DNA from: Rubripirellula sp.
GTDB taxonomy: Bacteria > Planctomycetota > Planctomycetia > Pirellulales > Pirellulaceae
Reading direction: 5' to 3'
DNA: 42,546 nucleotides
Assembly: GCA_029245125.1 (NCBI GenBank)
Contig: JAQWPZ010000149.1
Coordinates: 1 to 42,546 of the forward strand
Position numbers and translations under genes: made by a program. Positions 19,856 to 40,800 of the stretch are shown piece after piece (the stretch's first letter is position 1; the number at the start of each line of letters is the position of its first letter). The notes below the pieces were generated by a model. That model did not search any database, was not told where the DNA came from, and was given only the letters and a program-made list of their open reading frames with translations.

Positions 19856-19888
19856 GTGGCGTTCGTGGATACGACCAAGGAATTTCCA

Positions 19889-23924: not shown

Positions 23925-23977
23925 GATGGATGCGTGGATTGGATGAAAGGTCAATTGTTGACGAACGGAGATTCGCC

Positions 23978-25915
23978 ATGAGATGTTGTCTGCACGTCAA
24001 TTTCCGCCAACTATTAATTCTGTTGGCGGTTTCTGCCTGCACATGCCTCTCGGCGCTGGCAGCGGAGAAGGCCGATCAGAGAGTGGAGCCAACGGAAGAG
24101 TATTGCCGGCTTACCATCGAGCGACTGGAGTTGGCGGAGCGCACGTTGGAGTTCGTGGCAACGAGCATCCACCAACCAAAGCTGGCGGCAGAACTTCTCG
24201 CGTTAGAACAACGCATCAAATCGGCAGCCACATCCCCGGGCACGTTTCCGAAATCTTTGTACGAGGAAACGTGTAAGTTGCGTCGGCGGATCATTCTTTC
24301 ACATCCGCTGTTGGACTTTGACCGTCTGCTGATCAACAAACGCCCGCCGCCGAAATTCAATCACCAGTCAGATCAATACCTCGGCCGCCACAGTGGAGTC
24401 GGCGACGGTTTAGTGATTCTCGATTCGTGGAAAGATCAGCCACGGGAAACGGTCTTGCTCAAAGACAAGCTATTGCCGGGTTCGGTGTTACATCCAGATC
24501 TTTCATTCGACGCGACAAAGATACTGTTTTCGTACTGCGATCACACGCCGGCCGATTCGGACCATCGCCGCTTCTTTATCTATGAGGTCGCACTCCAGGA
24601 TGGTGCGTTGCGGCAGATAACCGGTACCGAGCAAGATTCTTTTGATGGCTCCCATGGACGCGATACGGTTTTGATTGAGGACTGGGATGCCTGCTATCTA
24701 CCGGATGGCGGATTCGCTTTCGTCAGCACGCGGAATCAGGGAGGCGTGCGGTGCCATTTCGGTGGACGCTATTGCCCCACATACACACTTTATCGTGGCG
24801 AATTAGACGGCACTGGCATCCAGCCGATGGCCTTTGGTGAGGCGAACGAATGGGACCCCAGCGTGATGCACGATGGACGCGTCATCTGGACACGCTGGGA
24901 CTACATCAATCGGCACGACACGCTGTTTCAAAGCTTATGGACGACCCGCCCCGACGGCACGTCACCGGAACACTACTACGGCAACTACACCTACAGCCCC
25001 TGTAGCATCGCCGAGGCGCGGGCGATCCCCGGCTCTCAGAAAGTGGTCGCCACAGCGACGGCTCACCACAGCTACACGGCGGGATCAATCATCGTTGTCG
25101 ATCCGCTCAAGGGACACGATGGGCTCGAACCGGTCACTCGAATCACGCCCGAGACGGCCTATCCAGAAACCGAAGGCTGGGCGGATGACGCCTACGCCAC
25201 TCCCTGGCCAATCAGCGAAGACCTGTTTCTGGTCGCATATTCCGCATCGCCTCACACCAGCCAAGGCAAGCGACAGGCGGTGAACGACTTCGCCATCTAC
25301 TTGATCGACACGCTCGGCGGCCGCGAACTGATATATCGCGACGCGTCGATGTCGAGCTTCTGTCCGATTCCGATCCAGCCTCGCCCCACGCCCCCGGCAT
25401 TGCCGTCGCTCACGCGAGCGAATTCGACGTCGGCGGAGCCAACTGGGGTCGTTGTCGTGCAAGACGTCTACGAAGGCCTCCAAGGAATCCCTCGCGGCAG
25501 CGTCAAGAGTTTGCGCGTTGTGCGAATTGACTCGCAAACCACCCAGGCTGTGCCGCCACGCAGTCGAGTGTTGTTCGAGACTGCCAAAAAGATCCTCGGC
25601 ACCGTACCCGTCGCCGAGGACGGCTCCGTGGCTTTTCGGGCGCCGGCCGGCGAATCGCTAGCGTTCCAATTGCTGGATCAAGATGGCATGGCGGTAATGA
25701 GCATGCGTTCGTTTACCTATTTGCATGCGGGCGAGACAGTCAGCTGCGTTGGCTGTCACGCCCCACGCAAATCAGTTCCTGCGAGCGCGTCCCTTCCCAG
25801 CGACTTTACCCGCTCGCGTGAGGTGAGTTTCACTTCTAATCTCCGTAACGCAATGCCAAAAACCATTGAAAGAAAACCCATTCTAGCGTGTTTTTACTTC
25901 CAAGTTAGGCTATAA
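23978..25915 (+). CDS. Hydrazine synthase alpha-like cytochrome, C-terminally shortened
   Basis: 645 residues. Start at 23978 is preferred to the upstream GTG at 23921 because it begins the signal peptide (MRCCLHVNFRQLLILLAVSA, then CTCLSALAAE) and has an ACGGAG nearby. An alpha-helical N-terminal part leads into LILSHPLLDFDRLLINKR-type sequence (here IILSHPLLDFDRLLINKR), then a six-bladed TolB/PD40-type propeller with LPDGGFAFVSTRNQGG and MHDGRVIWTRWDYINRHDTL, then the block GLQGIPRGSVKSLRVVRID, ILGTVPVAEDGSVAFRAPAG and one c-heme motif CVGCH (590-594). This is the HZS_alpha middle-domain architecture. Related proteins continue into a second cytochrome domain with another CXXCH (as in the long paralogue at 36541); here the protein ends about 50 residues after the first in an unrelated tail, so it is truncated. 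Function outside anammox bacteria is unknown. Confidence 0.85.
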   Translation: MRCCLHVNFRQLLILLAVSACTCLSALAAEKADQRVEPTEEYCRLTIERLELAERTLEFVATSIHQPKLAAELLALEQRIKSAATSPGTFPKSLYEETCKLRRRIILSHPLLDFDRLLINKRPPPKFNHQSDQYLGRHSGVGDGLVILDSWKDQPRETVLLKDKLLPGSVLHPDLSFDATKILFSYCDHTPADSDHRRFFIYEVALQDGALRQITGTEQDSFDGSHGRDTVLIEDWDACYLPDGGFAFVSTRNQGGVRCHFGGRYCPTYTLYRGELDGTGIQPMAFGEANEWDPSVMHDGRVIWTRWDYINRHDTLFQSLWTTRPDGTSPEHYYGNYTYSPCSIAEARAIPGSQKVVATATAHHSYTAGSIIVVDPLKGHDGLEPVTRITPETAYPETEGWADDAYATPWPISEDLFLVAYSASPHTSQGKRQAVNDFAIYLIDTLGGRELIYRDASMSSFCPIPIQPRPTPPALPSLTRANSTSAEPTGVVVVQDVYEGLQGIPRGSVKSLRVVRIDSQTTQAVPPRSRVLFETAKKILGTVPVAEDGSVAFRAPAGESLAFQLLDQDGMAVMSMRSFTYLHAGETVSCVGCHAPRKSVPASASLPSDFTRSREVSFTSNLRNAMPKTIERKPILACFYFQVRL

Positions 25916-26076
25916 CCTGCAATTTGCTCATCCATCAAAGCTGGATGCTGCACATCGATCACCGAATCAGAATCACCTGCGAGAAAAGTAACCGACACAA
26001 GCAGCGAAGATTACTTGCATACGAAGCAGGCACCTCGTTGTTCGGAAAGTCCCCTAGACGGATGAAGGAGCCACCA
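25916..26076. promoter_or_regulatory. Leader and ribosome binding site of radical SAM gene
   Basis: 160 bp between the shortened cytochrome gene and the radical SAM gene. AAGGAG at 26065-26070, 6 bp before the ATG at 26077, decides that start; an in-frame ATG at 25924 would add 51 residues of unlike sequence. A TATAAC hexamer at about 25910-25916 might be a -10 element, without a clear -35. Confidence 0.4.
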
Positions 26077-27828
26077 ATGATCGTCTCACCAAATCTCGTG
26101 CGGGCACAGACAACGGACCCACACTCTTCTGTTGTGCACCCGTTGGGCTCCCGCGCCAACGTTTTGCTGTCAAGCGTTTTCGGCCCCTATGCACAAGATG
26201 ACCAGTACGGCAGCCGCGGCATGAACCCCATGGAGCTGTATCACAATCAAGTGACACGAGAACAGGGTCCGTTGTCGCTACGGATGTTCCATCGCAGCTG
26301 GGGACTGATGCTGATACAGGCGAATATGCACGCCCCGTGCACGCTACTCGATTTTCCGACTCTGGATCGCTTTACAGAAGAAATTCGCACCACCCCGTAT
26401 GACATTGTGGGGATCAGTAGCATTCCGTTGAACGTCCTGAAAGTTCGCAAGATGTGCGAACTGGTGCGGCACCATCAACCGAATGCGACGATCGTCGTGG
26501 GTGGTCACATCGCAAACGTCTGCAATCTAAACGAACAGATCGACGCAGATTTCATCGTCAGGGGTGAGGGCGTGCGCTGGTTCCGGCGTTATCTGGGCGA
26601 AGCAGAAGACCAGCCCATCAAACATCCGGAGATTGCGTCCGGTGTCGGCACTCGCAATGTGGGAGTCACACTTCAAGAAAAGCCCGGCAACGTCGCTGCA
26701 ACCGTCATCCCCTCGGTCGGTTGCCCCATGGGCTGTAATTTTTGCGCCACATCAGCGATGTTCGGTGGCAAGGGAAAGTTCATTAATTTCTACGAGACCG
26801 GCGACGAACTTTTTGACGTGATGTGCCAGCTCGAACAATCCATGAAGGTCCAGTCCTTCTTTGTGATGGACGAGAACTTCCTGCTGCATCGGCAGCGGGC
26901 CCTGCGACTGCTCGAACGAATGGAGCAGAACGATAAGGCATGGTCGTTGTACGTGTTTAGCTCCGCCAAAGTGCTCGGCACCTACTCCATCGACCAACTA
27001 ATCCGTTTAGGTGTCTCCTGGGTCTGGATGGGACTTGAAGGCGAAGACAGCCAATACACCAAACTGCGAGGCGTCGATGTGCATGACTTGGTGCGGCAAC
27101 TCCAGTCACATGGAATGCACGTGCTCGGCTCTACCATCATCGGACTCGAAAACCACGCCGCGGAGAACATCGATCAGGTCATTGACTACGCCGTCCGTTA
27201 CGACACGGACTTTCATCAGTTCATGCTATACACGCCGGTCGAAGGAACGCCCCTGCACGCCGAATTATCAGCGCAGGGACTCATGAAAGACAGAAGTGAG
27301 TTTCATCCAGGCGACATTCACGGTCAGTTGATCTTCAACTACCGTCATCCACACATCAAGGGAAATCAAGAAGCAGAGTTCATGGTCCGCGCTTTCCAGC
27401 GAGACCTGGAGGTCAACGGCCCAAGCATGGTCCGGCTGGTGCGGACCACCATGGCCGGCTGGAAGCGGTACAAGAACGATCCAGATCCGAGGATCCGACG
27501 GCGATTCGCACACGAGGTCAAGGACGCGACAACCACCCTCTCCGCGCTCGTCTGGGCAACCGAACGCTTCTATCGCCACGTCCCCTCGATACACACGAAA
27601 GTCGCAGCAATCCTTGCCGATCTGTATCGTGAGTTCGGCTGGAAGTCGCGAGTCTCCGCCGCGGTTGGTGGACGATACGTGTTGCGAAAAATGCGTCAAG
27701 AAGAACATCGGCTGGCCAACGGATGGACCTACGAACCGCCCACCTTCTACGAAAAGAACTTTGTCGATTCCAAACCTGGCAAAGCATCCGACGCCGCCCT
27801 GTGTCAGTTTGTCACGCCCAAGCACTGA
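26077..27828 (+). CDS. B12-binding domain radical SAM protein
   Basis: 583 residues. The N-terminal half has the cobalamin-binding Rossmann-like pattern seen in BchE-type enzymes (TLLDFPTLDRFTEEIRTTPY, DIVGISSIPLNVLKVRKMCE, ATIVVGGHIANV, DFIVRGEGVRWFRRYLGE); the DXHXXG motif of base-off corrinoid binding was not found, as in many of these proteins. The radical SAM domain has the cluster motif C216-X3-C220-X2-C223 (GCPMGCNFCATS), then FFVMDENFLLHRQRALRLLE, VWMGLEGEDSQYTKLRG and GSTIIGLENH. About 150 further residues follow. The reaction (methylation, cyclisation or other) is unknown. It lies among HZS-alpha-like cytochromes and URO-D-family genes, which could point to corrinoid-linked chemistry. 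Confidence 0.92.
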   Translation: MIVSPNLVRAQTTDPHSSVVHPLGSRANVLLSSVFGPYAQDDQYGSRGMNPMELYHNQVTREQGPLSLRMFHRSWGLMLIQANMHAPCTLLDFPTLDRFTEEIRTTPYDIVGISSIPLNVLKVRKMCELVRHHQPNATIVVGGHIANVCNLNEQIDADFIVRGEGVRWFRRYLGEAEDQPIKHPEIASGVGTRNVGVTLQEKPGNVAATVIPSVGCPMGCNFCATSAMFGGKGKFINFYETGDELFDVMCQLEQSMKVQSFFVMDENFLLHRQRALRLLERMEQNDKAWSLYVFSSAKVLGTYSIDQLIRLGVSWVWMGLEGEDSQYTKLRGVDVHDLVRQLQSHGMHVLGSTIIGLENHAAENIDQVIDYAVRYDTDFHQFMLYTPVEGTPLHAELSAQGLMKDRSEFHPGDIHGQLIFNYRHPHIKGNQEAEFMVRAFQRDLEVNGPSMVRLVRTTMAGWKRYKNDPDPRIRRRFAHEVKDATTTLSALVWATERFYRHVPSIHTKVAAILADLYREFGWKSRVSAAVGGRYVLRKMRQEEHRLANGWTYEPPTFYEKNFVDSKPGKASDAALCQFVTPKH

Positions 27829-27961
27829 ATCGGCGAATTGATCACCCTGCCAAGGCTTGCCCCAGCGAAGCGGAAAATCTGGACCGTTTTGCCAGGAAAA
27901 GTCCTGAATCACATCAAGCAGAGACGCTGCCCACGAGTGTTTTCGACCTTCTCCGGTTGAT

Positions 27962-28018
27962 TCCGAACCCATCTAAACATTACAAACCTAGTTTAGTTTC
28001 AGGTGTATTGGGTTCGGA
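27962..28018. promoter_or_regulatory. Nested inverted repeat upstream of cytochrome/propeller gene
   Basis: An outer perfect 10-bp inverted repeat (tccgaaccca at 27962-27971, tgggttcgga at 28009-28018) encloses an inner 6-bp one (ctaaac 27973-27978, gtttag 27991-27996). It ends 30 bp before the ATG of the di-heme gene. It might be an operator, an RNA leader structure, or a terminator of the radical SAM gene; no T-tract follows. Confidence 0.5.
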
Positions 28019-28048
28019 TTAGGAAGCAACTGTCGAGGAGACTGGCCA

Positions 28049-29995
28049 ATGACTCGGTCCAAATGCGCAAAGGTATTCTGGGAAGCGGTACTCACCAGCA
28101 TGGTGGTGGCCAGCCTGGGCACGCAAAACTGCGGGGGTGCCGAGGGAAATTCCGCGACCGCGAGCGCCACGGCGGACTACCGATCACCAATCAGTCTGGT
28201 CAGCTCGCCGGATGGCCTGGTGGTGTATGCATCCGATCAGACGAGCGGAAGCCTGGTGATTCTCGACGCGGCAAAGATGACAAAGCGCAATGAGATCCCG
28301 TTACGCGGCAATCCACGGGGGATTGCTCTGTCGGGCGACGGCAGCACGCTCTATGTCGCGGAGCATGGAGCCGGCAGCGTGGCCGTGATAGACACGATCA
28401 AACAGGACGTCATTACGCGAATCAGCGTTGGCAAGTCACCGACGTCAGTCGCCATCGCCAACGAGACGAAACGACTGTATGTCGGCAACCAGAACCGTCA
28501 TTCCATTTCGGTGATTGACTTAGCGGAGACGCCGGCCAGGATGATCAAGGAGATTCCAGTCGTCCGCGAGCCAAGTAGCGTCGCAGTGACGCCCGATGAG
28601 CAGAGAGTCGTCGTAGCGAACCTGCTTGCCCTGGGGCGCGGGACGGACCCCAGATTGTCAGCCGAGTTGTGCATCATCAACGCGGAGACACTCGAGTTGT
28701 CGGCAACGGTGAAACTGCCCCCCGGATCAACCATGGTCCAAGGCGTGTGTGTCAGTCCGGACGGGAACTGGGCGTACGCGGTACACGGCCTAGGGCGATT
28801 CAACTTGCCCATTACCCAACTCGAAAGAGGCTGGGTCAATACTTTTGCCTTGAGCATTATCGACATCGCGCACGGAACGCGTCAGGCGACGATGTTGCTC
28901 GATGATTTGACGCAGGGTGCCGCTGACCCGCACAGCGTTATCTGCTCGCAGGACGGGAGCCAACTCTGGATCAGTCACACCGGCGTGCATGAAGTCTCTA
29001 CCATCGACATCGGTCTCATTCACGAGTTGCTTAACGGCAGAGTGCCCGAGGAACTGGCGTCGCTGCAAGACGGAACGCAAGCGAACATCTGGGTACAGAT
29101 TCAGCAGGACTCTGAAAAGATTGCAGACCTCGAAAACGACCTGACCGCTTTATACATTGCCGGAGCCATTCGCCGGTCTCGGACAGGCGGAACCGGTCCA
29201 CGCGGCCTGGCCCTTTCGAAGAATGGCAGGGACTTGTTTGTGGCAAACTATTACTCGGGCAGCGTGGCAGTGCTCGATACAACCACAGGTAAACCGAGAG
29301 GCAGTATTTCACTGGGGCCGCAACCAGAACGCAACGCCATACGGCGAGGAGAAATCATCTTTCACGACGCTACCCATGCCTTTCAACGCTGGCACAGTTG
29401 CGCATCTTGTCATGCCAACGAAGGCCGCATCGACGGCTTGCGGTGGGATTTCCTGGGTGATGGAATTGGAAATCCCAAAGATACGCTCAGCCTGCTCCAT
29501 ATGGACAAGACCGAGCCGATGAACCGAAGGGCGACAATGGAGTCGGCTTACGATTGCGCTCGAGGCGGTCTGGAGTCAACGAATATGATCGTGCCAACCG
29601 GACAGGAAGTCGATGATCTATTCGCTTATTTGAGTTCGTTGCGGCCGCTGCCGAGTCCTCATCTCACGCTAGACGGCCAGCTGACCGAGGCAGCCCAACG
29701 TGGAAAAACCCTGTTCGAGGGCAAGGCGAGTTGCGTGAAATGTCATCCCGCGCCGTACTTCACTGACAACAAAATGCACAACGTCGGGGTGCTCAGCGCG
29801 AATGAACCGGATGGTCGCTACGACACCCCGTCGCTGATCGAAGCCTATCGCACCGCGCCTTATTTGCACGATGGTCGCGCGTTGACTCTCAAAGACGTCC
29901 TGACTGCAAGCAACGAGAAAAAGCAGCACGGAAGGGCCAGCGCACTGAAAGCTGATGAGATTGATGATTTGGTCGCGTATCTACTTTCCTTGTAG
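28049..29995 (+). CDS. YVTN beta-propeller / di-heme cytochrome c protein
   Basis: 648 residues. A GAGGAG at 28035-28040 supports the ATG. A signal sequence is followed by YVTN-type propeller repeats: LVVYASDQTSGSLVILDAAK, STLYVAEHGAGSVAVIDTIK, KRLYVGNQNRHSISVIDLAE, and RDLFVANYYSGSVAVLDTTT. The C-terminal third is a cytochrome c peroxidase-like di-heme region with motifs CASCH (451-455) and CVKCH (562-566), including RATMESAYDC and YDTPSLIEAYRTAPYLHDGR, the MauG/CcpA-style second heme domain. Such proteins work in the periplasm as peroxidases or as electron carriers. The next cytochrome gene starts 34 bp later, so the two are probably co-transcribed. Confidence 0.9.
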   Translation: MTRSKCAKVFWEAVLTSMVVASLGTQNCGGAEGNSATASATADYRSPISLVSSPDGLVVYASDQTSGSLVILDAAKMTKRNEIPLRGNPRGIALSGDGSTLYVAEHGAGSVAVIDTIKQDVITRISVGKSPTSVAIANETKRLYVGNQNRHSISVIDLAETPARMIKEIPVVREPSSVAVTPDEQRVVVANLLALGRGTDPRLSAELCIINAETLELSATVKLPPGSTMVQGVCVSPDGNWAYAVHGLGRFNLPITQLERGWVNTFALSIIDIAHGTRQATMLLDDLTQGAADPHSVICSQDGSQLWISHTGVHEVSTIDIGLIHELLNGRVPEELASLQDGTQANIWVQIQQDSEKIADLENDLTALYIAGAIRRSRTGGTGPRGLALSKNGRDLFVANYYSGSVAVLDTTTGKPRGSISLGPQPERNAIRRGEIIFHDATHAFQRWHSCASCHANEGRIDGLRWDFLGDGIGNPKDTLSLLHMDKTEPMNRRATMESAYDCARGGLESTNMIVPTGQEVDDLFAYLSSLRPLPSPHLTLDGQLTEAAQRGKTLFEGKASCVKCHPAPYFTDNKMHNVGVLSANEPDGRYDTPSLIEAYRTAPYLHDGRALTLKDVLTASNEKKQHGRASALKADEIDDLVAYLLSL

Positions 29996-30029
29996 CCAAG
30001 TTCTCAGAGTAACAAATGGACTCGATAAC

Positions 30030-31556
30030 ATGAACGCAAAGTCAACCGGTCCGTGGCCGACAAAAATGCTGGCGATCCTGGTCAGCATCATCTGGACAAC
30101 GAGTCTGTGCCCAGTTCGCGGCAAGGATGTCGCAAAGCCGGCGTCTAGCGGACTACTTGCTCAGATGCTCAATGGTCCGCTCGAAGGTGTGGACGAAATC
30201 GTGTTTGCCACACGCGTCTCGGGTCGTGACCACTGGTACGTCAGTTTTGGCTACTACAGTTGCGACACCGGCCCGGCCGCCGAGCGAAGCTTTGGCGACT
30301 ATCCCGACGGCGAGACGCTACGAGGCTACGGCGATGGCGGAAGATTGTGCCGTATGAATCTCCGCTCCGGAGAAATGCAATTACTGATTGACGACCCCCA
30401 AGGAGGCGTACGGGATCCCCAAGTGCACTACGACGGAAAGAAAATTCTCTTCTCGTATCGCAAAGGCGGAACGCCAACTTACCATCTCTATGAAATCAAC
30501 ATCGACGGCACCGAGTTGACCCAGCTGACTGATGGTCCGGACGATGACATCGAGCCGACCTATCTGCCCGACGGCGGAATCATGTTCGGCTCGAGCCGTT
30601 GCCGCCGCTTCGTCAACTGCTGGTACAGCCGTGTCGCCACACTGTACCGCTGCGACTCCGATGGCAGTAACATTCGGATGAAACATCCGCCTAACAAAGT
30701 TGCGGCAATCCATGATGTTCCCTCTGTGCTCGATTTCCCACGGGACATTCAGCCAATCCTCAACAATCACTGTGTCGAATGTCACAACCCGGATCGGCGT
30801 GACGGAAAAGTAGATCTCAGCGGTGATCACACGCCGAAGTATTCCAACAGCTACTGGACCATTGTCCGCCGCGGACTGGTTGCCGATGGTCGTAATCAGC
30901 CCTATTCCAACCGCGCTCCGCGAACCATTGGCAGCTCAGCCAGCCGATTGATGCAGTTGAGCGATGGCAGCCACCACGGCGCTAAACTCACTGCCCTGGA
31001 ACGAAAGAAGATGCGACTTTGGATCGACACCAGCGCCACCTACCCAGGAACGTACGCCGCGCTTGGATGTGGCATGTACCCAGTCGCCTTGCCCTTGAAG
31101 ACGATGGTCAATCAGTGCGGCAATTGCCACGACGGCAAATCGCACGAAGGGCGAATGGCGATCAAGTTCGACTCAAACAACCTGCAGTCGAGATGCAACC
31201 TGTCGCAACCCGAGAAATCACTTTTGCTCCGAGCACCCTTAGCCAAGGAGCATGGAGGGCTGGGGATCTGCGGACAAGATGTCTTCGAGAATACCGACGA
31301 TGCTCTCTACCGGATGATGTTGCATGCCATCCAAGGTTCTGCCAATCGGCTCAACACCGACAAACGCTTCGACATGCCCGGCTTCCGACCCAACAAACAC
31401 TACATCCGCGAGATGAAGCGGTTCGAAATACTCCCCGCGGATCTGGGGCCCAACGAGCCGATCAACGTCTACGAAACAGACGAGCGGTACTGGAGGTCGT
31501 TCTGGTACACCGCCGAACAGGCAACCGCCTTCGATCAAACGAGTGACAAGCGTTAA
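30030..31556 (+). CDS. HZS-alpha-like multiheme protein with apparent internal deletion
   Basis: 508 residues from the ATG at 30030, which opens a signal peptide (KMLAILVSIIWTTSLCPVRG). The first part is a TolB/PD40 propeller of HZS-alpha-like proteins (PLEGVDEIVFATRVSGRDHW, ILFSYRKGGTPTYHLYEINI, YLPDGGIMFGSSRCRRFVNC). At residue about 220 (GSNIRMKHPPNKVAAIHDVP) it jumps to the C-terminal cytochrome region: LDFPRDIQPILNNHCVECH (heme at 248-252), ADGRNQPYSNRAPRTIGSS, LWIDTSATYPGTYAALG and CGNCH (363-367). In the usual layout several propeller blades, the IPRG block and a CVGCH lie between these parts, as in the gene at 36541. The join keeps the reading frame, so a shortened protein can be made. 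The loss may be real or an assembly collapse. Confidence 0.85.
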   Translation: MNAKSTGPWPTKMLAILVSIIWTTSLCPVRGKDVAKPASSGLLAQMLNGPLEGVDEIVFATRVSGRDHWYVSFGYYSCDTGPAAERSFGDYPDGETLRGYGDGGRLCRMNLRSGEMQLLIDDPQGGVRDPQVHYDGKKILFSYRKGGTPTYHLYEINIDGTELTQLTDGPDDDIEPTYLPDGGIMFGSSRCRRFVNCWYSRVATLYRCDSDGSNIRMKHPPNKVAAIHDVPSVLDFPRDIQPILNNHCVECHNPDRRDGKVDLSGDHTPKYSNSYWTIVRRGLVADGRNQPYSNRAPRTIGSSASRLMQLSDGSHHGAKLTALERKKMRLWIDTSATYPGTYAALGCGMYPVALPLKTMVNQCGNCHDGKSHEGRMAIKFDSNNLQSRCNLSQPEKSLLLRAPLAKEHGGLGICGQDVFENTDDALYRMMLHAIQGSANRLNTDKRFDMPGFRPNKHYIREMKRFEILPADLGPNEPINVYETDERYWRSFWYTAEQATAFDQTSDKR

Positions 31557-31584
31557 TTAGAATGGCTTGCCAGGCCGCGATGCA

Positions 31585-32046
31585 CTAGCCCCGTTTTTTC
31601 TTCGGCAAAGTTGCCCTGATGTCCTTGGCCAGCTCGGCCACCGTGACACCGGCCAGCGACTGCAGAAACTGCTCCTCCAATCTGGACATTTTGCGTTGGA
31701 TCGCACATCGTCCAATGACTGGACACTCGTCTTCAAGCGATAAGCCGCAGCGATTCGTTTCAATGCCTTCGAGCAGTTCAACGATATCGCGAATGCTAAT
31801 TTTATCGGCCGGCCGACCAAGAGAGTAACCTCCGGCGATCCCACGGTGACTACGCAGCAGCTTCCCGCGTGCCATCCGCTGAACAACATTGGACAGATAT
31901 GTATCCGATGAACTGGGCCAGATTGTCAACATCCATTCGGCCAACTCGGGCAACGTCGTTAACTCGCCGGCTGGTTTTGTTCCTACGAAGGCCAGAGCAT
32001 GGAGGCCATAACTGAAACGTTGCGAAAAGAACTGGCCACTTGCCAC
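31585..32046 (-). CDS. Rrf2 family transcriptional regulator with three-Cys cluster site
   Basis: 153 residues from a GTG start with GAAGGA 8 bp upstream. The winged helix of the Rrf2 family is seen in YGLHALAF, YLSNVVQRMARGKLLRSHRG and IAGGYSLGRPADKISIRDIV followed by ELLEG. Three cysteines, C100, C108 and C114 (RCGLSLEDECPVIGRC), form the usual iron-sulfur site; the spacing is C-X7-C-X5-C, slightly wider than the IscR C-X5-C-X5-C. The protein should sense iron-sulfur status, redox or NO in the cytoplasm. It lies downstream of the URO-D-family gene on the same strand and converges with the cytochrome gene on the left. A 7-bp inverted repeat 40-68 bp upstream could be its own operator. Confidence 0.92.
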   Translation of the reverse strand: MASGQFFSQRFSYGLHALAFVGTKPAGELTTLPELAEWMLTIWPSSSDTYLSNVVQRMARGKLLRSHRGIAGGYSLGRPADKISIRDIVELLEGIETNRCGLSLEDECPVIGRCAIQRKMSRLEEQFLQSLAGVTVAELAKDIRATLPKKKRG

Positions 32047-32085
32047 TATTTCGGTCCTTCAGGAGAAGAGTCAAAAAAGCCAACT

Positions 32086-32114
32086 CACCAAGCGTGGTTT
32101 ACACTCTCTTGGTG
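32086..32114. promoter_or_regulatory. Inverted repeat upstream of Rrf2 gene, possible operator
   Basis: Perfect arms caccaag (32086-32092) and cttggtg (32108-32114) separated by 15 bp, centre-to-centre 22 bp (two helical turns). It lies 40-68 bp before the Rrf2 GTG, where an autoregulatory site would be expected. Function is inference. Confidence 0.4.
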
Positions 32115-32182
32115 TACCAATGATAACGGGTCCGTCTTCAACGTCAATTACCGCCCATGCCGGCGTTGAATGGCGAAATTTG

Positions 32183-33649: not shown

Positions 33650-34018
33650 GAATGATCGACTCCAATTGCAACTTCCACGCTGGCAAGTTTTGACGGGGGG
33701 AAGACGGGGTCAGACGGGATCAGACGGGATCAAACGGGATCAAACGGGATCAAACGGGGGGCAGACCGAGAACACGCCCTGGCGATTCACCTATAGCCAG
33801 AACGAGCACTGACCGACATCGGAAGCAGGATGCAACCCAAATTCCGAATCCGACCAAAACACGAGCGTCTACCTGGAGAATGCGATACACCTGTACTATG
33901 CAAACCCAACCTTGTTTGTTTAGTATAGAAGCCAGCGAGCTGTTTCGCCAGCCCTGGCTCGACCAGTGCCATCTCGCCCAATCCTCGCCTGCATCAGCCA
34001 GTTATCAAGGAGCACGCC
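33650..34018. other. Divergent intergenic region with tandem repeat
   Basis: About 370 bp between the divergent URO-D and Gfo/Idh starts. It holds a six-copy 10-bp tandem repeat (33701-33760) near the URO-D start, and an AT-richer stretch (33900-33930). AAGGAG at 34007-34012, 6 bp before the ATG at 34019, supports the Gfo/Idh start. Promoters for both genes should lie here. Confidence 0.5.
33701..33760. repeat. Tandem repeat, 10-bp unit, six copies
   Basis: Six contiguous 10-bp units of the type caRacgggat, the outer two slightly divergent (aagacggggt first, caaacggggg last). The period is close to one helical turn, so all copies face the same side of the DNA. It starts 52 bp upstream of the URO-D start codon, in its promoter or leader. 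On the URO-D strand the unit reads atcccgtttg. Confidence 0.93.
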
Positions 34019-34639
34019 ATGAAGAGACGTGACTTTCTCCGTCAGTCGACGGTCGCTGCCACAGCCAGTTTAGCGACACCCTATTTTGTCTCCTCCAAAG
34101 CGTTGGGACGGGGTGACCAGAGTGGTGCCAACGACAAGCTGAATGTAGGGATCATCGGGCTCGGCGGACGGGCGCGGACCATTGCCAAGACATGCCTTCA
34201 GATACCTCAAATGCGAATCGCCGCGGTCTGTGATTGCTTCGCACCCCGCTGCGATCAGTTCATCGATGCGGTTGGCGAAGACCAAAACTGGTCAAGCTAT
34301 GAAGACTTCCGCGAAATGATTGACAAGGAAAAGCTGGATGGTGTGATGGTCGAAACGACGACCCACGCGCGGGCCTGGGTGGCGATCCAGGCCATGCAAG
34401 CTGGAATGGATGTCTACATTGAAAAGCCAATGTGCCTGACGATCGATGAAGGGCGTTACATGGTCGAGGCAGCTCGCAAATACGATTGTGTGACGCAGGT
34501 TGGAACGCAGCAGCGTTCGATGCCGATCAACAACTGGGCGAGCGACCTGGTCAAGAATGGAGAGATTGGAAAAGTACACACCGTGCTCGCTCCCAACTTC
34601 GTCGGCCCCGATCAATGGCCCAGTAGTGAACCAGTGTGA
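34019..34639 (+). CDS. Gfo/Idh/MocA oxidoreductase, N-terminal part only
   Basis: 206 residues. A Tat signal (MKRRDFLRQSTVAATASLAT) leads into the Rossmann domain with GIIGLGGRARTIAKT, then IEKPMCLTIDEGRYMVEAAR with the expected EKP, then VGTQQRSMPINNWASDLVKN and GEIGKVHTVLAPNFVGPDQW. Family members are about 430-480 residues; here the frame ends at 34639, just after the start of the substrate-binding domain, because the DNA from about 34625 encodes a heparinase-like protein in another frame. The start has a good ribosome binding site, so a Rossmann-only fragment is likely made, but without a complete active site. A full paralogue lies at 12890. Confidence 0.85.
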   Translation: MKRRDFLRQSTVAATASLATPYFVSSKALGRGDQSGANDKLNVGIIGLGGRARTIAKTCLQIPQMRIAAVCDCFAPRCDQFIDAVGEDQNWSSYEDFREMIDKEKLDGVMVETTTHARAWVAIQAMQAGMDVYIEKPMCLTIDEGRYMVEAARKYDCVTQVGTQQRSMPINNWASDLVKNGEIGKVHTVLAPNFVGPDQWPSSEPV

Positions 34640-36497
34640 CCAGCTATTGGCAAACCCACCGCCTACCGACGAGCCACCGAAGTACGGCCCACAGGTGGTT
34701 CGCAACAGTGAGCAGTGGCGGAAGACTTGGTGGGGCAACCGCACGTACACTACCAAAGCATTGGACAGTGCGGCGACACTTGCATTCACGCGGATGATCG
34801 GCGGCAAGCAAGAGTATGGACAACTCGCTAGACGAATTCTAATGGATTGCGCAAAGTGGGATCCCAAGGGGGCAACCGGCTATCGCTACAACGACGAAGC
34901 GGGAATGCCATACGCCTACTACTTTGCCAGAACCTACACCTTCGTTCACGATCTGCTGTCCGAAGAAGAGCGAAAAGTCTGTCGTCGAGTGATGAAGATT
35001 CGCGGCGACGAAATGTATCAGCACCTTCATCCAAGGCACCTCTGGCAGCCGTATTCAAGCCACAGCAATCGAGCCTGGCATTTTCTCGGTGAGATCGGGA
35101 TCGCAATGCAAGGCGAGGTGGAAGGAGCCGACCAGTGGGTGTGGTTTGCGACCAATGTTTTCCGCAACGTTTACCCTGTCTGGTCGGACGACGATGGAGG
35201 CTGGCACGAAGGATTTGGGTATTGGAACAGTTACATCGGACGATTCACTTGGTGGGCCGATGTAATGCGATCGGCGATGAATATCAACGCGTACGATAAA
35301 CCGTACTTTTCGAAGATCGGCTACTATCCCATGTACTTGTTGCCGCCTGGGAAAGTCGGTGCCGGCTTTGGCGACCTGAACGCACGGGGCAGTGCGTCCC
35401 GCGCGGTCCCGCTGGTCAGCCAACTTGCAACGCAGGCCGGCAATGGCCACTGGCAATGGTATATCCAGCAAATGGGAGGTTCGAGTCCCCCGCCGGGCTA
35501 TGTGAGCTTTGTTCGCGGCACGCTGCCTGACACCGCGGCCCGACCGCCAGACGACCTGCCTGCCTCACGTCTTTTTCGCGGCACCGGCCAAGCCATTTTG
35601 AACACGACGCTCGACGATGCCACCAACGATGTTCAAGTCGTTTTTAAGTCCAGCCCATTCGGAACTCAGTCGCATGGCTATGAAGCAAACAATTCGTTCT
35701 TGCTGTGGGCCTACGGTCAACGGCTACTGATTCGCAGTGGTTATCGAGACAGCTATGGAACCGAGCACCACCGAAAATGGATGTGGAGCACTCGGAGTGT
35801 CAACAACATCACCATTGATGGACAGGGGCAACTGGCACACTCCGCGGCTGCTCAAGGGCGCATCACGCAATTTAAAACATCGCCCACCATTGATATGGTC
35901 GCGGGTGAAGCAGCAGACGCGTACCGATCCAGTTCCGGCGCTCCGTTGCTTGATCGATTCACTCGCACAATTTTGTTCATCAAGCCAGAATTAATTGTCG
36001 TTTACGATCGGCTGGAAGCTCAGCGCGAATCGACGTTTGAATACTGGCTGCACGCCACGCAGAAGTTCGCGGTCACCAGCCAACGCAAGATCGACCTTCA
36101 AGTCAAAGATGTCGGTTGCGCAGTTTCGCTACTGGCTCCCGAGGGACTTGAATTCTCGCAAACGGACCAGTACGACCCCAACCCGCGAGCTCGAGTCACG
36201 CTCCGAGAGTGGCACCTGACAGCCACCACGCCTTCGAGAGCAAGGAACGTCGAATTCGTGGCACTCTATCGACCCCATCGTGACGGTAATCAACCGCCGC
36301 GCAACGAGAAGCTGACGAAGATCGACGGCGGATATGTTTTGACAGCGGATTTGACCGATGGTCAAGTCGTGGCGTTGTTGCCCACGGATGATTCAGCGTT
36401 ACTCTCTGCCGACGGACTTTCGGCCGATGGCGCAATTCTTGTTCAGCGTCGCGACAAAGACGGCAACGTTGTTGCTACCTTGAAACTCGACCAGTGA
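34626..36497 (+). CDS. Heparinase II/III-like (DUF4962) protein, 5'-truncated
   Basis: The frame is open far to the left (from 34500), but the first 125 bp lie inside the Gfo/Idh frame. From about 34640 it reads as a DUF4962/heparinase II/III-type polysaccharide lyase: RILMDCAKWDPKGATGYRYN, DEAGMPYAYYFARTYTFVHD, the alpha-toroid segment SHSNRAWHFLGEIGIAMQGE, DDDGGWHEGFGYWNSYIGRF, then a beta-sandwich half (SFLLWAYGQRLLIRSGYRDS, HHRKWMWSTRSVNNITIDGQ, LLDRFTRTILFIKPELIVVY). The usual signal peptide and N-terminal part are absent. A GTG at 34626 is the nearest possible start but has no good ribosome binding site, so this may be a pseudogene. The family cleaves acidic polysaccharides such as glycosaminoglycans or alginate-like glycans. 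Confidence 0.75.
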   Translation: MNQCDQLLANPPPTDEPPKYGPQVVRNSEQWRKTWWGNRTYTTKALDSAATLAFTRMIGGKQEYGQLARRILMDCAKWDPKGATGYRYNDEAGMPYAYYFARTYTFVHDLLSEEERKVCRRVMKIRGDEMYQHLHPRHLWQPYSSHSNRAWHFLGEIGIAMQGEVEGADQWVWFATNVFRNVYPVWSDDDGGWHEGFGYWNSYIGRFTWWADVMRSAMNINAYDKPYFSKIGYYPMYLLPPGKVGAGFGDLNARGSASRAVPLVSQLATQAGNGHWQWYIQQMGGSSPPPGYVSFVRGTLPDTAARPPDDLPASRLFRGTGQAILNTTLDDATNDVQVVFKSSPFGTQSHGYEANNSFLLWAYGQRLLIRSGYRDSYGTEHHRKWMWSTRSVNNITIDGQGQLAHSAAAQGRITQFKTSPTIDMVAGEAADAYRSSSGAPLLDRFTRTILFIKPELIVVYDRLEAQRESTFEYWLHATQKFAVTSQRKIDLQVKDVGCAVSLLAPEGLEFSQTDQYDPNPRARVTLREWHLTATTPSRARNVEFVALYRPHRDGNQPPRNEKLTKIDGGYVLTADLTDGQVVALLPTDDSALLSADGLSADGAILVQRRDKDGNVVATLKLDQ

Positions 36498-36540
36498 TGA
36501 AACACCTGACAGCGTGGGAAAATTACCGCAGAGCCGTAAA

Positions 36541-39500
36541 ATGAACCTCCAAGCGACTAGTGTGGTTCTGCTACTCGCCTGGAACGCGGCTTCAACTGCC
36601 GGTGATCCGGCATGGTATGAGCGTCACGATTCATGGTGCGAGACGCTGACCCAATCGCGTGAAGCACTGATGATGCAGGAGGCGCAAGAAGCAACTGCTA
36701 CGGGAACAACTGCCATGCCACGGATGGGCCCGTGGTTCTGCCTGGGACCGGTTTCAGGATCCAGCGGAAACGCGAACCTTGAAACACACATCGTCGCGGC
36801 GAAGCAGGCTGACCTGTCTGCGGAATATGCCGTTGGAACGCAGAGTGAAAAGCAACGATGGATTTTTCGGCCAGAATACAAAGAGGGATGGATTCACAAG
36901 CTGTTTTCTGGCGAACACGCCGTCTACCTACGCCGCAAAATCAATGCGACCACGGCTACTACGCTGCCGGTCTATCTGGATGCAACAGGGAAGATGACAG
37001 TCTGGCTGAACGGCGATCAGGTGGTGACGCAACAGCACGGAAATATCGCGTACAACCTGTGGAGTGGCGATGTACAGGCAAAGCCGACTCCGGTTCTGTT
37101 GAAACTGCGGATGGGCGTAAATGACCTTCTTCTGAAGATTGAACTCCATCCAAAACCTCGGCGTCTTGACGATCATGATCCATGGCGAAAATACACGCTG
37201 GAAGCGAGACGACCATGGGGAACGGTCTTCAACGGACACTCCACGAGCAGTGGTCCTGCGACCGAATACGAAAAACTCGTCTATCGCGAAGTGTCCAACT
37301 TTTACTGTTCAACCGTCGAAACGTTGGGGCCGCTGGCGGATGCCGGCAAGCGAAAACGCGAACAACTATGGCAACTCCTGCAACGCGACTTCCCTGATGA
37401 CGCCTCTCGCCGCGAAATGAAACGAGAACGAGCACAAGGGCTTTGGGCTTGGGACTGGTCCACAGACAGTATGCGCGAACTTGCCGATCGCTATGCGGGA
37501 GCCATTCGTCAGACGCCGCGACGCGACGCGGCCCAACGGCTGGCAATGCAGGCCACAGACCAAGACGGGTTGTTACCCGTTCGGAATCTCTACCATCGCG
37601 CCAAGCTCGCCGAACGGGGCGAACAAAGTGCACATAGCGCAGAATCTCGATTGACTTTGAGGCACAAAATCGTTTCTCTTCGCTTGGCCATCAACGATCT
37701 GATCGAAACTCATGGGCAAGGCTATTCGGACGGATCCGACTATCTGGCACGGCTAAGAGTCATCGAAGAATTGGTTGAGCAGGCGGTTTCCAACCAACGC
37801 GCCGATTTGTTTGCCGAGGCACATACCGAACTCGAAAGCTTGCGCCGCGAGTCGTTGCTGGCAAATCCGCTGCTGGATTTTGATCGAGTCCTGATCGTCA
37901 AGCGTCGTGCCAATCCATTCATCCCAGATTTGCCGATGAATTGGGCCAACAACTCAAGTCTCTCTGCAAGCCAGTACGACAACGAAATCGCCATCCTGTC
38001 ACCGCTCGGTTCCGGTTGCGAGTTGACGACACTGTTCAAACCCGACAAGCGAAATTTCGTCGGTGATGTCGATCTGCATTTCAATGGTGACCGGTTGCTT
38101 TTTTCGATGCCCGGCAGACACGACCGTTGGCAGGTTTTCGAGCTTCACACTGACGGTAGCAAGTTGCGTCAAGTAACACGCGGGGATCAGCCGGACGTCG
38201 ACAACTTCGATGCCTGCTACTTGCCCAATGGCAAGGTCATGTTCTGTAGCACAGCAGTATTCGCCGGAGTTCCTTGTGTGCGAGGACGCGATCATGTAGG
38301 TGTGCTGTTCGTGATGGACGCAGACGGCGGCAACATTCGGCAGCTTTGCTTCGAGCAGGACCAGGACTATTGCCCAACCGTACTCAACGACGGGCGTGTT
38401 CTTTACACGCGTTGGGAATACACAGACATCCCTCATTTTTTCAGCCGCCTGCTGTTTAGCATGAATCCCGATGGAACCGATCAGAAATCGTACTATGGCA
38501 GCAACTCGTACTGGCCCAATAGCATCTTCTACACTCGGCCGATCCCGGGCCATACTTCCCAAGTCGTTGGGGTGGTCAGCGGACATCATGCCTCGCGGCG
38601 CAGTGGTGAACTCGTGCTGTTCGATCCATCGCTAGGACAACATGAAGCAGACGGTGTTGTGCAGCGGATCCCGGGCCGCGGTCACCAGGTCGCACCGATC
38701 ATCAACGATCGGCTGGTGGTCGGATCTTGGCCGAAATTCCTGCATCCTTTCCCACTGAGCGAAAAGTACTTCCTCGTTTCCTGCAAAAGTAGCGAGGAAT
38801 CACGCTGGGGTATCTACCTGGTCGACGTTTTCGACAACATGTTGCCGCTGTACGTAGACGAGGATCACGATCTGCTGGAACCAATCCCCGTCCGCTCGCA
38901 ACCACGGCCGGCAGTCATCCCCGACCGCGTCGAAGCGAATCGAAAAGATGCAATCATCAACCTGGGTGACATCTATGCCGGTCCAGGCCTGTCCGGTATC
39001 CCGCGAGGAACGGTCAAGAACTTGCGCGTGATCGCTTACCATTATGCCTATCAAAACATGGCGGATGACTCGCGGGCGATCGGTGTCGATTCGTCATGGG
39101 ATACGGTCAAAATGGTACTCGGCACCGTGCCTGTCCATGAAGATGGTTCAGCGATGTTTCGTGTACCGCCCAACACACCGCTGACCGTTCAACCACTCGA
39201 CGCACAAGGCAAAGCCCTGCAATTGATGCGCAGTTGGATGACTGCAATGCCGGGCGAGACACTGTCTTGCGTTGGCTGTCACGCACCGTCTAGTGCCGTG
39301 CCATCAGCCCGGCATACGTTGGCCGTCCAACGCGGACCAGCAACGCTCAAGCCTTGGTATGGCCCCGTTCGAGGCTTCAGCTTCAAACGAGAAGTCCAGC
39401 CAGTTCTGAACAAGTACTGCGTTGGCTGCCACGAGTCAAAAAAAGAAGCAGAAGCCTTTTCCAAAACCGGCCCAGAGGATGCTTCGCAGAGAATGCCCGT

Positions 39501-40800
39501 GTCCCCTTTCTCGCTTGCTGAGCGAGAAAGCTCTGACCCGCGAGGATTCAGCCCATCCTATTTGCAGCTGCACCGATTCGTCCGGCGTCCGGGAGCTGAA
39601 TCTGATTACCACTTGTTACCGCCAGCAGAATATCACGCCAACGTTTCCGAGTTGGTGCAGTTGCTCGAAAAAGGACATTACAACGTCCAACTCGATGCCG
39701 AAGCTTGGGATCGGCTAATCACATGGATCGACCTGAACGTGCCGTTCCATGGGACATGGCACGAAGCCCAAGGCGAAGAGCGGGTCGGTGATCAGAGAAC
39801 ACGGCGTCGTGAATTGCGTAAGCGATACACCGGCCTTGACGAGGACCCCGAAGAAATCATCATTCCGGCCAGCCCGGACACTATCGAGCCGTCTGTGCCG
39901 CAGGTCGATCAAGAAACCGTTCCTGAAGAAACCGTTCCTGGCTGGCCCTTCGACGCCACCGAAGCGAGAAAGCGACAAGCTTCAGGCGGACGTGCGACTA
40001 CACGAACGGTCGATTTGGGTGACGGCATCGTGATCCGTCTAATGCGAATCCCAGCCGGAGAATTCCTGATGGGCGACCCTGCCGGTCACACCAACGAGCG
40101 GCCCCGTCGACAGCGGATTACTCATCCGTTTTGGATCGGCGAACTGGAAGTGACGAACCAGCAGTTCGCACAGTTTGATTCCTTACACGACAGTCGTTAC
40201 ATCAGGACTCACGGAATCGCTTCAACACGCGGCTACGCGGTTAATCTCCCTGAGCAGCCGGTCGTGCGTGTTTCCTGGAATCAAGCGAATGAGTTCTGTC
40301 GATGGTTGTCAGACAAAACGGGCGAGAAGTTCTCTCTTCCGTCCGAAGCGATGTGGGAATATGCCTGTCGAGCAGGATCCGCGACGCCGCTTTCTTACGG
40401 CAATCTCGATACAGACTTTTCACTCCATGCGAACCTCGCGGATCGCCAAGTCGAGCACCTACGCGATTACAGTCACAGCTCGAAGCTTGCCTGGATACCT
40501 AGAGACTCACGTTACGATGACGGTGCGATGATCACCGCCGCGGTGGGCAATTATCGGCCGAACGCGTGGGGACTTTTTGACATGCATGGGAACGCGGCAG
40601 AATGGACGCGAAGCCGCTACTCGTCGACCCATGGCAGTCTCTCCGACTCAGCCGACGGCAAAATGGTAACGCGAGGTGGATCGTGGCGCGACCGCCCTCA
40701 ACGCTGTCGCAGCGGCTTTCGAATCGGCTATCCCGCCTGGCAAAAGGTTTACAACGTCGGTTTTCGCGTTGTTTGCGAAAGCAACCGGTCCAGTGACTGA
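36541..40800 (+). CDS. Long HZS-alpha-like cytochrome fused to FGE-sulfatase-like domain
   Basis: 1419 residues; ATG at 36541 starts the signal peptide (MNLQATSVVLLLAWNAASTA), nine codons inside a GTG-started frame. Domains: a beta-sandwich near 50-215 (TLPVYLDATGKMTVWLNGDQ), a helical part, then HZS-alpha-like sequence from LLANPLLDFDRVLIVKRRAN (about 440), a propeller with YLPNGKVMFCS and LNDGRVLYTRWEYTDIPHFF, the GLSGIPRGTVKNLRVIAYHY block, CVGCH at 910-914 and a second CVGCH at 960-964 (FKREVQPVLNKYCVGCHESK). From about 1160 a formylglycine-generating-enzyme-type domain follows (IRLMRIPAGEFLMGDPAGHT, WIGELEVTNQQFAQF, FSLPSEAMWEYACRAGSATP, DMHGNAAEWTRSRY, TRGGSWRDRPQRCRSGFRIG). The first catalytic Cys of true FGE appears to be missing. 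Probable periplasmic redox or binding protein; reaction unknown. Confidence 0.9.
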   Translation: MNLQATSVVLLLAWNAASTAGDPAWYERHDSWCETLTQSREALMMQEAQEATATGTTAMPRMGPWFCLGPVSGSSGNANLETHIVAAKQADLSAEYAVGTQSEKQRWIFRPEYKEGWIHKLFSGEHAVYLRRKINATTATTLPVYLDATGKMTVWLNGDQVVTQQHGNIAYNLWSGDVQAKPTPVLLKLRMGVNDLLLKIELHPKPRRLDDHDPWRKYTLEARRPWGTVFNGHSTSSGPATEYEKLVYREVSNFYCSTVETLGPLADAGKRKREQLWQLLQRDFPDDASRREMKRERAQGLWAWDWSTDSMRELADRYAGAIRQTPRRDAAQRLAMQATDQDGLLPVRNLYHRAKLAERGEQSAHSAESRLTLRHKIVSLRLAINDLIETHGQGYSDGSDYLARLRVIEELVEQAVSNQRADLFAEAHTELESLRRESLLANPLLDFDRVLIVKRRANPFIPDLPMNWANNSSLSASQYDNEIAILSPLGSGCELTTLFKPDKRNFVGDVDLHFNGDRLLFSMPGRHDRWQVFELHTDGSKLRQVTRGDQPDVDNFDACYLPNGKVMFCSTAVFAGVPCVRGRDHVGVLFVMDADGGNIRQLCFEQDQDYCPTVLNDGRVLYTRWEYTDIPHFFSRLLFSMNPDGTDQKSYYGSNSYWPNSIFYTRPIPGHTSQVVGVVSGHHASRRSGELVLFDPSLGQHEADGVVQRIPGRGHQVAPIINDRLVVGSWPKFLHPFPLSEKYFLVSCKSSEESRWGIYLVDVFDNMLPLYVDEDHDLLEPIPVRSQPRPAVIPDRVEANRKDAIINLGDIYAGPGLSGIPRGTVKNLRVIAYHYAYQNMADDSRAIGVDSSWDTVKMVLGTVPVHEDGSAMFRVPPNTPLTVQPLDAQGKALQLMRSWMTAMPGETLSCVGCHAPSSAVPSARHTLAVQRGPATLKPWYGPVRGFSFKREVQPVLNKYCVGCHESKKEAEAFSKTGPEDASQRMPVSPFSLAERESSDPRGFSPSYLQLHRFVRRPGAESDYHLLPPAEYHANVSELVQLLEKGHYNVQLDAEAWDRLITWIDLNVPFHGTWHEAQGEERVGDQRTRRRELRKRYTGLDEDPEEIIIPASPDTIEPSVPQVDQETVPEETVPGWPFDATEARKRQASGGRATTRTVDLGDGIVIRLMRIPAGEFLMGDPAGHTNERPRRQRITHPFWIGELEVTNQQFAQFDSLHDSRYIRTHGIASTRGYAVNLPEQPVVRVSWNQANEFCRWLSDKTGEKFSLPSEAMWEYACRAGSATPLSYGNLDTDFSLHANLADRQVEHLRDYSHSSKLAWIPRDSRYDDGAMITAAVGNYRPNAWGLFDMHGNAAEWTRSRYSSTHGSLSDSADGKMVTRGGSWRDRPQRCRSGFRIGYPAWQKVYNVGFRVVCESNRSSD

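Follow-up and report, generated by a model that had tools for sequence, protein, structure and literature searches.

Hydrazine synthase (HZS) has homologues outside the anammox bacteria. According to the available parts of two papers, HZS-like alpha and beta-gamma homologues occur in Planctomycetota, where they were placed in clades I to IV (PMC12758564), and hzsABC-like genes were described in the same phylum (PMC10732223). Such relatives are widespread, and the literature searched, in the portions available, holds no tested function for them. For the heme-ligand and active-site residues of the enzyme (Tyr591 of the alpha subunit, His144 and Asp168 of the gamma part) we follow the roles given in the accessible text of PMC12758564 and PMC12607021. 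Also of relevance here is chloromethane dehalogenation, in which CdmB is methyltransferase I according to the available part of PMC13222342. We analyzed a stretch of 42,546 nucleotides from Rubripirellula sp. (assembly GCA_029245125.1, contig JAQWPZ010000149.1, forward strand), hereafter the window, which carries relatives of both HZS and CdmB. Our tentative interpretation, to which we give somewhat less than an even chance, is that the window contains a gained island encoding an HZS-like redox complex, likely not making hydrazine, under the control of an Rrf2-family regulator and accompanied by a corrinoid methyl-transfer module. An earlier note on this DNA, made from the letters alone, had proposed an undescribed system, a term that is too strong in view of the HZS-like alpha and beta-gamma pairs already in print.

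Hydrazine synthase-like subunits encoded in the window

The gene at 28049..29995 (+ strand) is whole and encodes a propeller and two CxxCH motifs. It had been described as a YVTN di-heme cytochrome in a region with no other hydrazine synthase genes, and proved to be a homologue of the fused HZS beta-gamma protein. The top NCBIfam model was fused hydrazine synthase beta-gamma (E value of 2.4e-48), at 165 bits against an equivalog cut-off of 1250, which the protein does not reach. When the protein was compared with solved structures, the best match was the YVTN surface-layer protein 1l0q, and matches to the HZS chains were obtained over residues 42-342 (5c2v_B, 8.7e-29) and over residues 429-581 and 590-647 (5c2v_C, 2e-25). 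A profile of 12 orthologues improved the HZS matches to 1.3e-50 for 5c2v_B and 2.2e-37 for 5c2v_C. The best PDB match of a structure model of the protein, with a mean pLDDT (predicted local distance difference test) score of 74.6, was 5c2v_B. The gamma part of this model was mostly of low confidence, and the gamma likeness is known by sequence homology; the PDB list for the model covered the propeller alone and contained no di-heme protein, which we did not count as evidence against the assignment.

Three genes of the window are alpha-like. The Pfam domain HZS_alpha (PF18582, cut-off of 26.6 bits) was detected in hzs1 at 23921..25915 (+ strand, start probably at 23978; 6.4e-21, 75 bits) and in the gene at 36514..40800 (+ strand; 1.1e-30, 106 bits). 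The latter is whole, encodes an HZS-alpha-like cytochrome to which an FGE-sulfatase domain is fused (FGE-alpha below), and is 72.6% identical to the L107 protein over residues 28-1415. On the NCBIfam HZS alpha model the window genes scored 35-54 bits, short of the equivalog cut-off of 800. The fold of 5c2v_A was matched by an intact alpha orthologue from locus L113, which is not a window protein. Alpha-, beta- and gamma-like HZS parts are present in the window.

The FGE part of the fusion is a PvdO/GldK-like FGE-sulfatase domain. In genome G035 the sole HZS_alpha match is an FGE-alpha-family protein, which lies on a different contig from the cytochrome. Elsewhere the number of HZS_alpha matches per genome reached 53 in G045, 36 in G028, 32 in G030 and 14 in G024.

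Loss of the hydrazine synthase hallmarks

The alpha Tyr591 place was occupied by tyrosine in four of four anammox sequences but in none of 118 alpha2-type and none of 36 hzs1-type relatives, counting relatives with a letter in the column (119 alpha2-type and 36 hzs1-type rows); FGE-alpha and hzs1 of the window both lack an equivalent. In the gamma His144 column, histidine was found in all 26 anammox rows, arginine in 22 of the 23 distinct close relatives and tryptophan in the remaining one, while 70 more distant rows had S, I, A, W, V, R or G. None of the 27 close rows had a residue in the gamma Asp168 column. A cysteine at window residue 506 was shared by 20 of the 23 distinct close relatives and by 5 of the 70 distant rows; it was aligned with gamma Cys165, the site of the third covalent heme bond, in one alignment and lay 11 columns apart from it in another. 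Since the heme-ligand and active-site residues are missing, with no equivalent of Tyr591 or His144 and Asp168 unaligned, hydrazine chemistry is not implied, in agreement with the earlier note. A true hydrazine synthase was rejected on the hallmark residues together with the family scores.

Gene order and distribution of the relatives

At least 545 relatives of the beta-gamma-like cytochrome were confirmed in the genome collection, and the best 80 of these were named as loci (L numbers; G and C numbers denote genomes and contigs), many of them with short flanks. An alpha-like gene was found within 3 kb of the cytochrome gene in 28, and within 10 kb in 30, of the 47 loci whose two flanks each measure 3 kb or more. 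The window protein belongs to a clade of 21 (support of 1.0) and to a subclade of 10 (support of 1.0). Among the members of this subclade, L105, L108, L113, L140 and G024 have alpha after beta-gamma, which is also the order of the anammox locus L223, and G056 has it before; L103, L104 and L107 have no alpha gene directly after beta-gamma. An Rrf2 gene follows the cytochrome gene in L103, L104, L107 and G056 and is on the same contig in G037. Next after Rrf2 come genes for a CdmB-like and an MtaA-like protein in L103 and L107, and in G035, whose contig agrees with L104 in length and content, the gene series continues on a second contig. The FGE-alpha gene shares the contig in L107, G037 and G056. 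Since other genomes, including some from other genera (G035, G037 and G056), have these gene neighbours too, and both HZS_alpha matches found in the window's genome lie here, the set is not a chance grouping.

Distribution was assessed in 80 genomes, the window's own included. The cytochrome was present at an E value of <1e-100 in 11 genomes, the best value in the next genome being 3.7e-51. HZS_alpha was detected at <1e-15 in the same 11 genomes and more weakly (2.6e-13 to 1.2e-11) in 6 others. The CdmB-like protein was found in 10 genomes, all within the 11 carriers, 7 times at an identity of at least 52% and 3 times as a weak match (2.8e-11, 4.6e-4 and 6.0e-4). An Rrf2 orthologue at <1e-30 was found in 6 genomes, again all within the carriers; with weaker paralogues included, Rrf2 proteins were found in 61. 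A NapH-like protein at an identity of at least 48% was present in 5 of 50 genomes, 4 of them carriers. Co-occurrence elsewhere, which the earlier note had named as a check, held for cytochrome and alpha, common to 11 of the 80 genomes, and for Rrf2 and URO-D, confined to these 11, but not for the radical SAM gene, which is weakly tied to them. Neither the genomes nor their genera are independent samples in such a comparison.

This gene, at 25924..27828 (+ strand, start probably at about 26059), encodes a protein with B12-binding and radical SAM domains. Its orthologues (at least 58% identity) were found in 5 of the 80 genomes, 3 of them within the 11 carriers. Both the window and L113 have this gene immediately upstream of the cytochrome, and the remaining 79 named loci, many with short flanks, showed none in its vicinity; a role as a core part was rejected on the weak tie by distribution and neighbourhood.

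Two further neighbours were seen among the relatives. In a distant clade, a protein of family f4 (with a RidA/L-PSP domain where scanned) is often encoded directly after beta-gamma, with alpha usually upstream (L133, L137, L144, L146, L148, L151, L152, L156, L161, L164, L166, L167, L169, L170, L174-L176, L178, L180 and others); RidA was the commonest neighbour domain, in 11 of 85 proteins scanned, 5 of which had an FkbO-like N-terminus. We are not aware of an account of this gene set, for which the literature was not searched. At L108:6469-7719 a tryptophan-halogenase-like flavoprotein is encoded directly after the alpha gene.

Corrinoid methyltransferase-like proteins

The URO-D superfamily gene at 32183..33649 (- strand) is whole, and CdmB was the sole PDB relative of its product at an E value of ≤0.001 (4.8e-39). 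A second URO-D gene is present as an MtaA-like fragment at 22280..22624 (+ strand, within an open reading frame [ORF] at 22217-22663), which covers residues 228-342 of 410. Elsewhere in the genome a 29% relative of this second gene was found, the fragment being the sole strong match. The whole relative from L103 was nearest to MtaA (4ay7, 2.3e-25), with uroporphyrinogen decarboxylases following from 8e-15, and HxC with a later cysteine was present in four of the five second URO-D proteins compared. The HxC...C motif binds zinc in such methyltransferases. An MtaA-like gene stands beside the CdmB-like gene in L103, L107 and G035, and in L104 a corrinoid protein with two B12 domains is encoded 5.5 kb upstream of the cytochrome. 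The nearest solved relatives, CdmB and MtaA, and the corrinoid protein of L104 lend support to the corrinoid-dependent pathway put forward in the earlier note. Candidates for the methyl group that fit the CdmB and MtaA kinship and the sugar genes (O-methyl, halomethyl or sugar-linked methyl) are guesses.

A Gfo gene was also found near the CdmB-like orthologues of G043 and G032. Subunits of a molybdopterin hydroxylase are encoded with the corrinoid protein at L104:87-4440, upstream of the cytochrome cluster. The text on mlp methyltransferase clusters (PMC10418091) does not contain the words planctomycet, cytochrome, radical or Gfo.

The Rrf2 regulator and a candidate binding site

The product of the gene at 31585..32046 (- strand) contains an Rrf2 domain (PF02082, 1.8e-25) and the cysteine arrangement C-X7-C-X5-C, which was present in eight of eight orthologues compared, those of L103 and L104 being near-identical. 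The nearest named family below the superfamily level was NsrR (3.6e-15), at 56 bits against an equivalog cut-off of 182, which is not reached. The promoters of the Rrf2 genes have in common an imperfect palindrome, AAACTAnC-N4-GnTAGTT. When upstream regions were scored with a matrix from four Rrf2 promoters, the cytochrome promoters of L104, the window and L103 were among the best non-Rrf2 regions, and the window beta-gamma promoter, in which the match lies at 27975..27999 (- strand), ranked 5th of 977. Shuffling the matrix columns 100 times never gave an equally good result on the four cytochrome promoters from loci with an Rrf2 gene; in this comparison L103 and L104 are near relatives and the promoters are of common ancestry. 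The independent Rrf2 promoter of L262 scored above all background. The motif is a candidate Rrf2 site, which we treat as a lead and not as proof.

Insertion of a block of at least 26 kb

Positions 1..16373 of the window are chromosomal DNA in common with the congener G016, collinear with G016:C71 at 83-86% (blastn). The Pfam content of this flank comprises a UvrD helicase, a metallophosphatase and an AAA_27 protein (presumably SbcD and SbcC), an aldose epimerase, DUF1501, PSCyt/PSD1, Gfo/MocA and a SpoIIAA-like protein; the AAA_27 protein is 86% identical in amino acids to its G016 counterpart. Beyond position 16373 there was no blastn match at an E value of ≤1e-8 in the 58 kb of G016:C71 examined, and the block at 16374..42546 (26,173 bases, reaching the contig end) has no counterpart at the G016 site. 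The opposite side of that site corresponds to contig C297 of the window's genome, which is collinear up to C297:5977 and then continues into other DNA. In G016 the site is empty, with both flanks contiguous and about 216 bases between the two matches. Two contigs of one genome thus enter foreign DNA with such cytochrome genes from either side of one site. This is an inserted block of at least 26 kb, of which 16374-42546 is part and which is likely a horizontally gained island. The 17-kb cluster of the earlier note is present, but within this larger block. For the same reason, a contaminant or chimeric contig is less likely as the sole explanation.

No cytochrome match at <1e-100 was found in the 21 congeners examined. 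The C297 border carries an IS-like (insertion sequence-like) remnant with weak helix-turn-helix matches (HTH_23, E value of 0.003; HTH_Tnp_1, 0.069), both under their cut-offs. No tRNA was found in the window and no integrase among the families listed; the far end of the block is not assembled, and tetranucleotide composition was not decisive between island and flank. Past the end of synteny, C297 has a second beta-gamma-like gene at 7342-9237 (G000:C297, L052), after which the contig ends. Its protein is 31% identical to the window beta-gamma protein, belongs to a different clade and has tryptophan at the catalytic place in the translation as read by eye. Tandem arrays occur at 15426-15505 (16 bases, 5.0 copies), just left of the island border, and at 33704-33758 (10 bases, 5.5 copies), between the URO-D and Gfo genes.

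Proposed function and alternative explanations

The observations on which our interpretation is based are the HZS subunit homology, the fold of the beta part and of an alpha orthologue, the loss of the hallmarks, the gene order, the distribution and the insertion. We propose that the alpha and beta-gamma proteins would constitute an exported multiheme redox complex, in which the di-heme gamma part may donate electrons to soluble c-type cytochromes or accept them from these, and a small molecule would react at the alpha heme site. In the cytoplasm, the CdmB-like protein as methyltransferase I and the MtaA-like protein as methyltransferase II would transfer a methyl group via a corrinoid protein, and the cytochromes may serve the redox side of the same catabolism. 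Judging from the promoter motifs, the Rrf2 protein, which likely bears an iron-sulfur (Fe-S) cluster, would regulate beta-gamma as well as its own expression, and the module would be switched on only when the state of the cluster, set by anoxia, nitric oxide (NO) or iron, allows. A more specific form of this proposal, which we consider rather unlikely, is a mobile Fe-S-regulated catabolic module that combines an HZS-type complex, altered by an arginine at the catalytic position of the gamma heme and a new adjoining cysteine, with a CdmB/MtaA-type pair of corrinoid methyltransferases.

Several results weigh against the proposed redox and methyl-transfer island. Two unrelated regions of L052 outscored every cytochrome promoter for the motif, no motif match was obtained for Rrf2 in L044 or in L261 (where the start is uncertain), and the close cytochrome promoters as a whole did not stand out (P = 0.17). 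An Rrf2 gene lay near the cytochrome in 3 of the 80 named loci, many of them with little flanking sequence. L104 alone had a corrinoid protein gene close to the cytochrome, and no corrinoid or MtaA-like partner was recognised in the CdmB-like neighbourhoods of G043, G028, G030, G064 and G032. The E value cut-offs for the cytochrome, HZS_alpha and Rrf2 were set after viewing the gaps in the lists. A shared lifestyle could have caused the co-distribution, as carriers hold many paralogues (of HZS_alpha, for example, in G045 and G028). Finally, seven genes of the island are broken, which may mean either that the module no longer functions in this strain or that the assembly contains errors.

The lifestyle argument leads to an explanation that we regard as doubtful but serious, namely, that the block is a glycan-use island of a generalist, in which the cytochromes, as one among many families of exported cytochromes in genomes of this type, serve sugar oxidation and the co-distribution only marks large-genome or anaerobic lineages, with no special tie to the methyltransferase-like proteins. 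The neighbouring genes (Gfo/MocA, URO-D, sulfatase, 3-keto-disaccharide hydrolase, xylose-isomerase-like and DUF4962 lyase) are in keeping with such an island, as are the large HZS_alpha expansions in some carriers. A mere marker of lifestyle, however, predicts no conserved order, whereas Rrf2 and CdmB-like orthologues are found in such an order beside the cytochrome elsewhere.

The broken genes themselves suggest another explanation, which we consider unlikely: that the island is a dead or misassembled remnant, decaying after capture or lying on a contig patched from short reads. The seven lie within 26 kb and comprise a peroxidase, a NapH-like gene, the second URO-D gene, two alpha genes, a Gfo gene and a lyase gene. 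The peroxidase (PF00141, 17232..18211, - strand) is split over two frames, one ORF covering positions 38-114 of the profile and the other 124-236, both as weak matches (6.9e-6 and 9e-7). The membrane 4Fe-4S protein with Fer4_5 domains at 21418..22311 (+ strand), which we take to be of the NapH kind, has lost its C-terminus, homology ending at 22272-22296, and three relatives are 438-486 amino acids long. Its neighbour at 20775..21425 (+ strand), a 4Fe-4S ferredoxin-domain protein, resembles NapG weakly (20.5 bits against a cut-off of 269). The NapGH-like module proposed for this site thus stands as two ferredoxin-domain genes, one with a weak NapG match and the other cut. The Gfo/Idh/MocA oxidoreductase gene (34019..34618, + strand) encodes residues 1-199 of 459 only, and the DUF4962/heparinase II/III-like lyase (34632..36497, + strand) has lost its N-terminus, the profile starting at position 224. 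At L107:14122-14342, between the Gfo and FGE-alpha genes, a match (71% of nucleotides) to the lyase-gene part 36271-36491 was found, and the L107 lyase gene seems to be reduced too, at the same spot.

Breakage is most readily followed in the alpha genes. The hzs1 protein is 664 amino acids long, as against 838-1144 in 109 of its 120 best relatives; homology ends near 25804-25810, ahead of the second heme of the relatives, and the C-terminus with this heme is lost. The third alpha gene (29955..31556, + strand, start probably at 30030) has no HZS_alpha domain, though its relatives do, and aligns with them in two blocks between which 305 residues, this domain included, are missing. The internal deletion, at about 30680, removed the heme-alpha-I domain and kept the two other CxxCH motifs. 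A length of 763-904 amino acids was found in 119 of the 120 best database relatives. The exception, P0065 (376 amino acids, on a 3248-base contig), differs from the window sequence right of the break only by a 10-residue tandem repeat and keeps the HZS_alpha domain that the window has lost, in keeping with a remnant, as are the weak IS-like traces at the C297 border. Outside the window, no further HZS_alpha match was found in its genome and the second URO-D gene had only the 29% relative, and we rejected on this ground the possibility that the lost pieces lie elsewhere in the assembly. The window alone would mislead, as breakage accounts for two of the three alpha proteins in the form read here, and of the three HZS-alpha-like genes first reported the FGE fusion is whole, but hzs1 is cut and 29955-31556 is without the domain. 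The genes reported there (two with HZS_alpha, the radical SAM, Rrf2, URO-D and ferredoxin-domain genes and the URO-D fragment) were all recovered at the positions given here. What speaks against a dead remnant is that four genes (beta-gamma, Rrf2, CdmB-like and FGE-alpha) have uninterrupted full-length reading frames, at 72-89% identity to relatives, and these could still work in this assembly.

Very unlikely, in our view, is a nitrogen-oxide enzyme close to HZS, in which beta-gamma reduces NO, alpha condenses or disposes of the product and an NsrR-like Rrf2 protein senses NO, since, although the subunit and fold match to HZS, the nearest (under cut-off) Rrf2 family and the clade-specific cysteine near the place of the third heme cysteine would suit it, the Tyr591 equivalent is absent from every alpha2-type and hzs1-type relative counted, the His144 equivalent is almost always arginine and Asp168 is unaligned.

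We know of no function for an ancestor of hydrazine synthase. If the more specific form of our proposal, the mobile Fe-S-regulated module, is real, it would provide the first metabolic context for the large family of HZS-like cytochromes outside anammox and a model of the role of hydrazine synthase before it made hydrazine. The regulator and the methyltransferase-like genes are distributed like the HZS relative and in some genomes are also ordered with it, and they offer a first handle on such proteins. Fe-S state, NO or oxygen becomes a candidate inducer, methyl transfer a candidate pathway and the palindrome a candidate DNA motif, none of which calls for a guess at the substrate.

Comparison with known systems

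Compared with hydrazine synthase (5C2V; hzsBCA), the system shares the alpha fold (in an orthologue) and the beta fold, gamma homology by sequence, two CxxCH motifs in the gamma part, a fused beta-gamma protein as in the anammox locus L223 and the order of beta-gamma then alpha. It differs in having no equivalents of Tyr591, His144 and Asp168, in an alpha2 type with three CxxCH motifs and in NCBIfam scores far below the equivalog cut-offs.

Like the Cdm system (PDB 9RUI; available part of PMC13222342), the island encodes a URO-D superfamily methyltransferase I-like protein, similar over most of CdmB. The window protein is about 60 residues longer than CdmB, and partner genes were recognised beside the CdmB-like gene only in L103, L107 and G035. 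MtaA (methylcobalamin:coenzyme M methyltransferase, 4AY7) is similar over nearly its full length to the whole relatives, which also have HxC...C, whereas the window keeps a 115-residue fragment alone.

The published homologues, in the available text of PMC12758564 and PMC10732223, likewise combine co-located alpha and fused beta-gamma proteins without the anammox hallmarks, and clade IV of PMC12758564 likewise has a variable gene order. Clades I-III of that report have tryptophan at the His144 place, whereas the window group has arginine. The words Rrf2, radical SAM and methyltransferase are absent from the main text of PMC12758564, and the literature searched, in the parts available, names no Rrf2 or methyltransferase partner for HZS-like cytochromes. 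The accessible portion of PMC6264515, on Rrf2 in nosZ clusters, mentions hydrazine synthase as well and draws no link, and those of PMC8862662, PMC12213060, PMC3913995 and PMC6828613, on corrinoid proteins and the Wood-Ljungdahl pathway, draw none to hydrazine synthase. Within this literature, what the present locus adds to the published pairs is a proposed link of an HZS-like cytochrome to a regulator gene and a methyltransferase-like gene.

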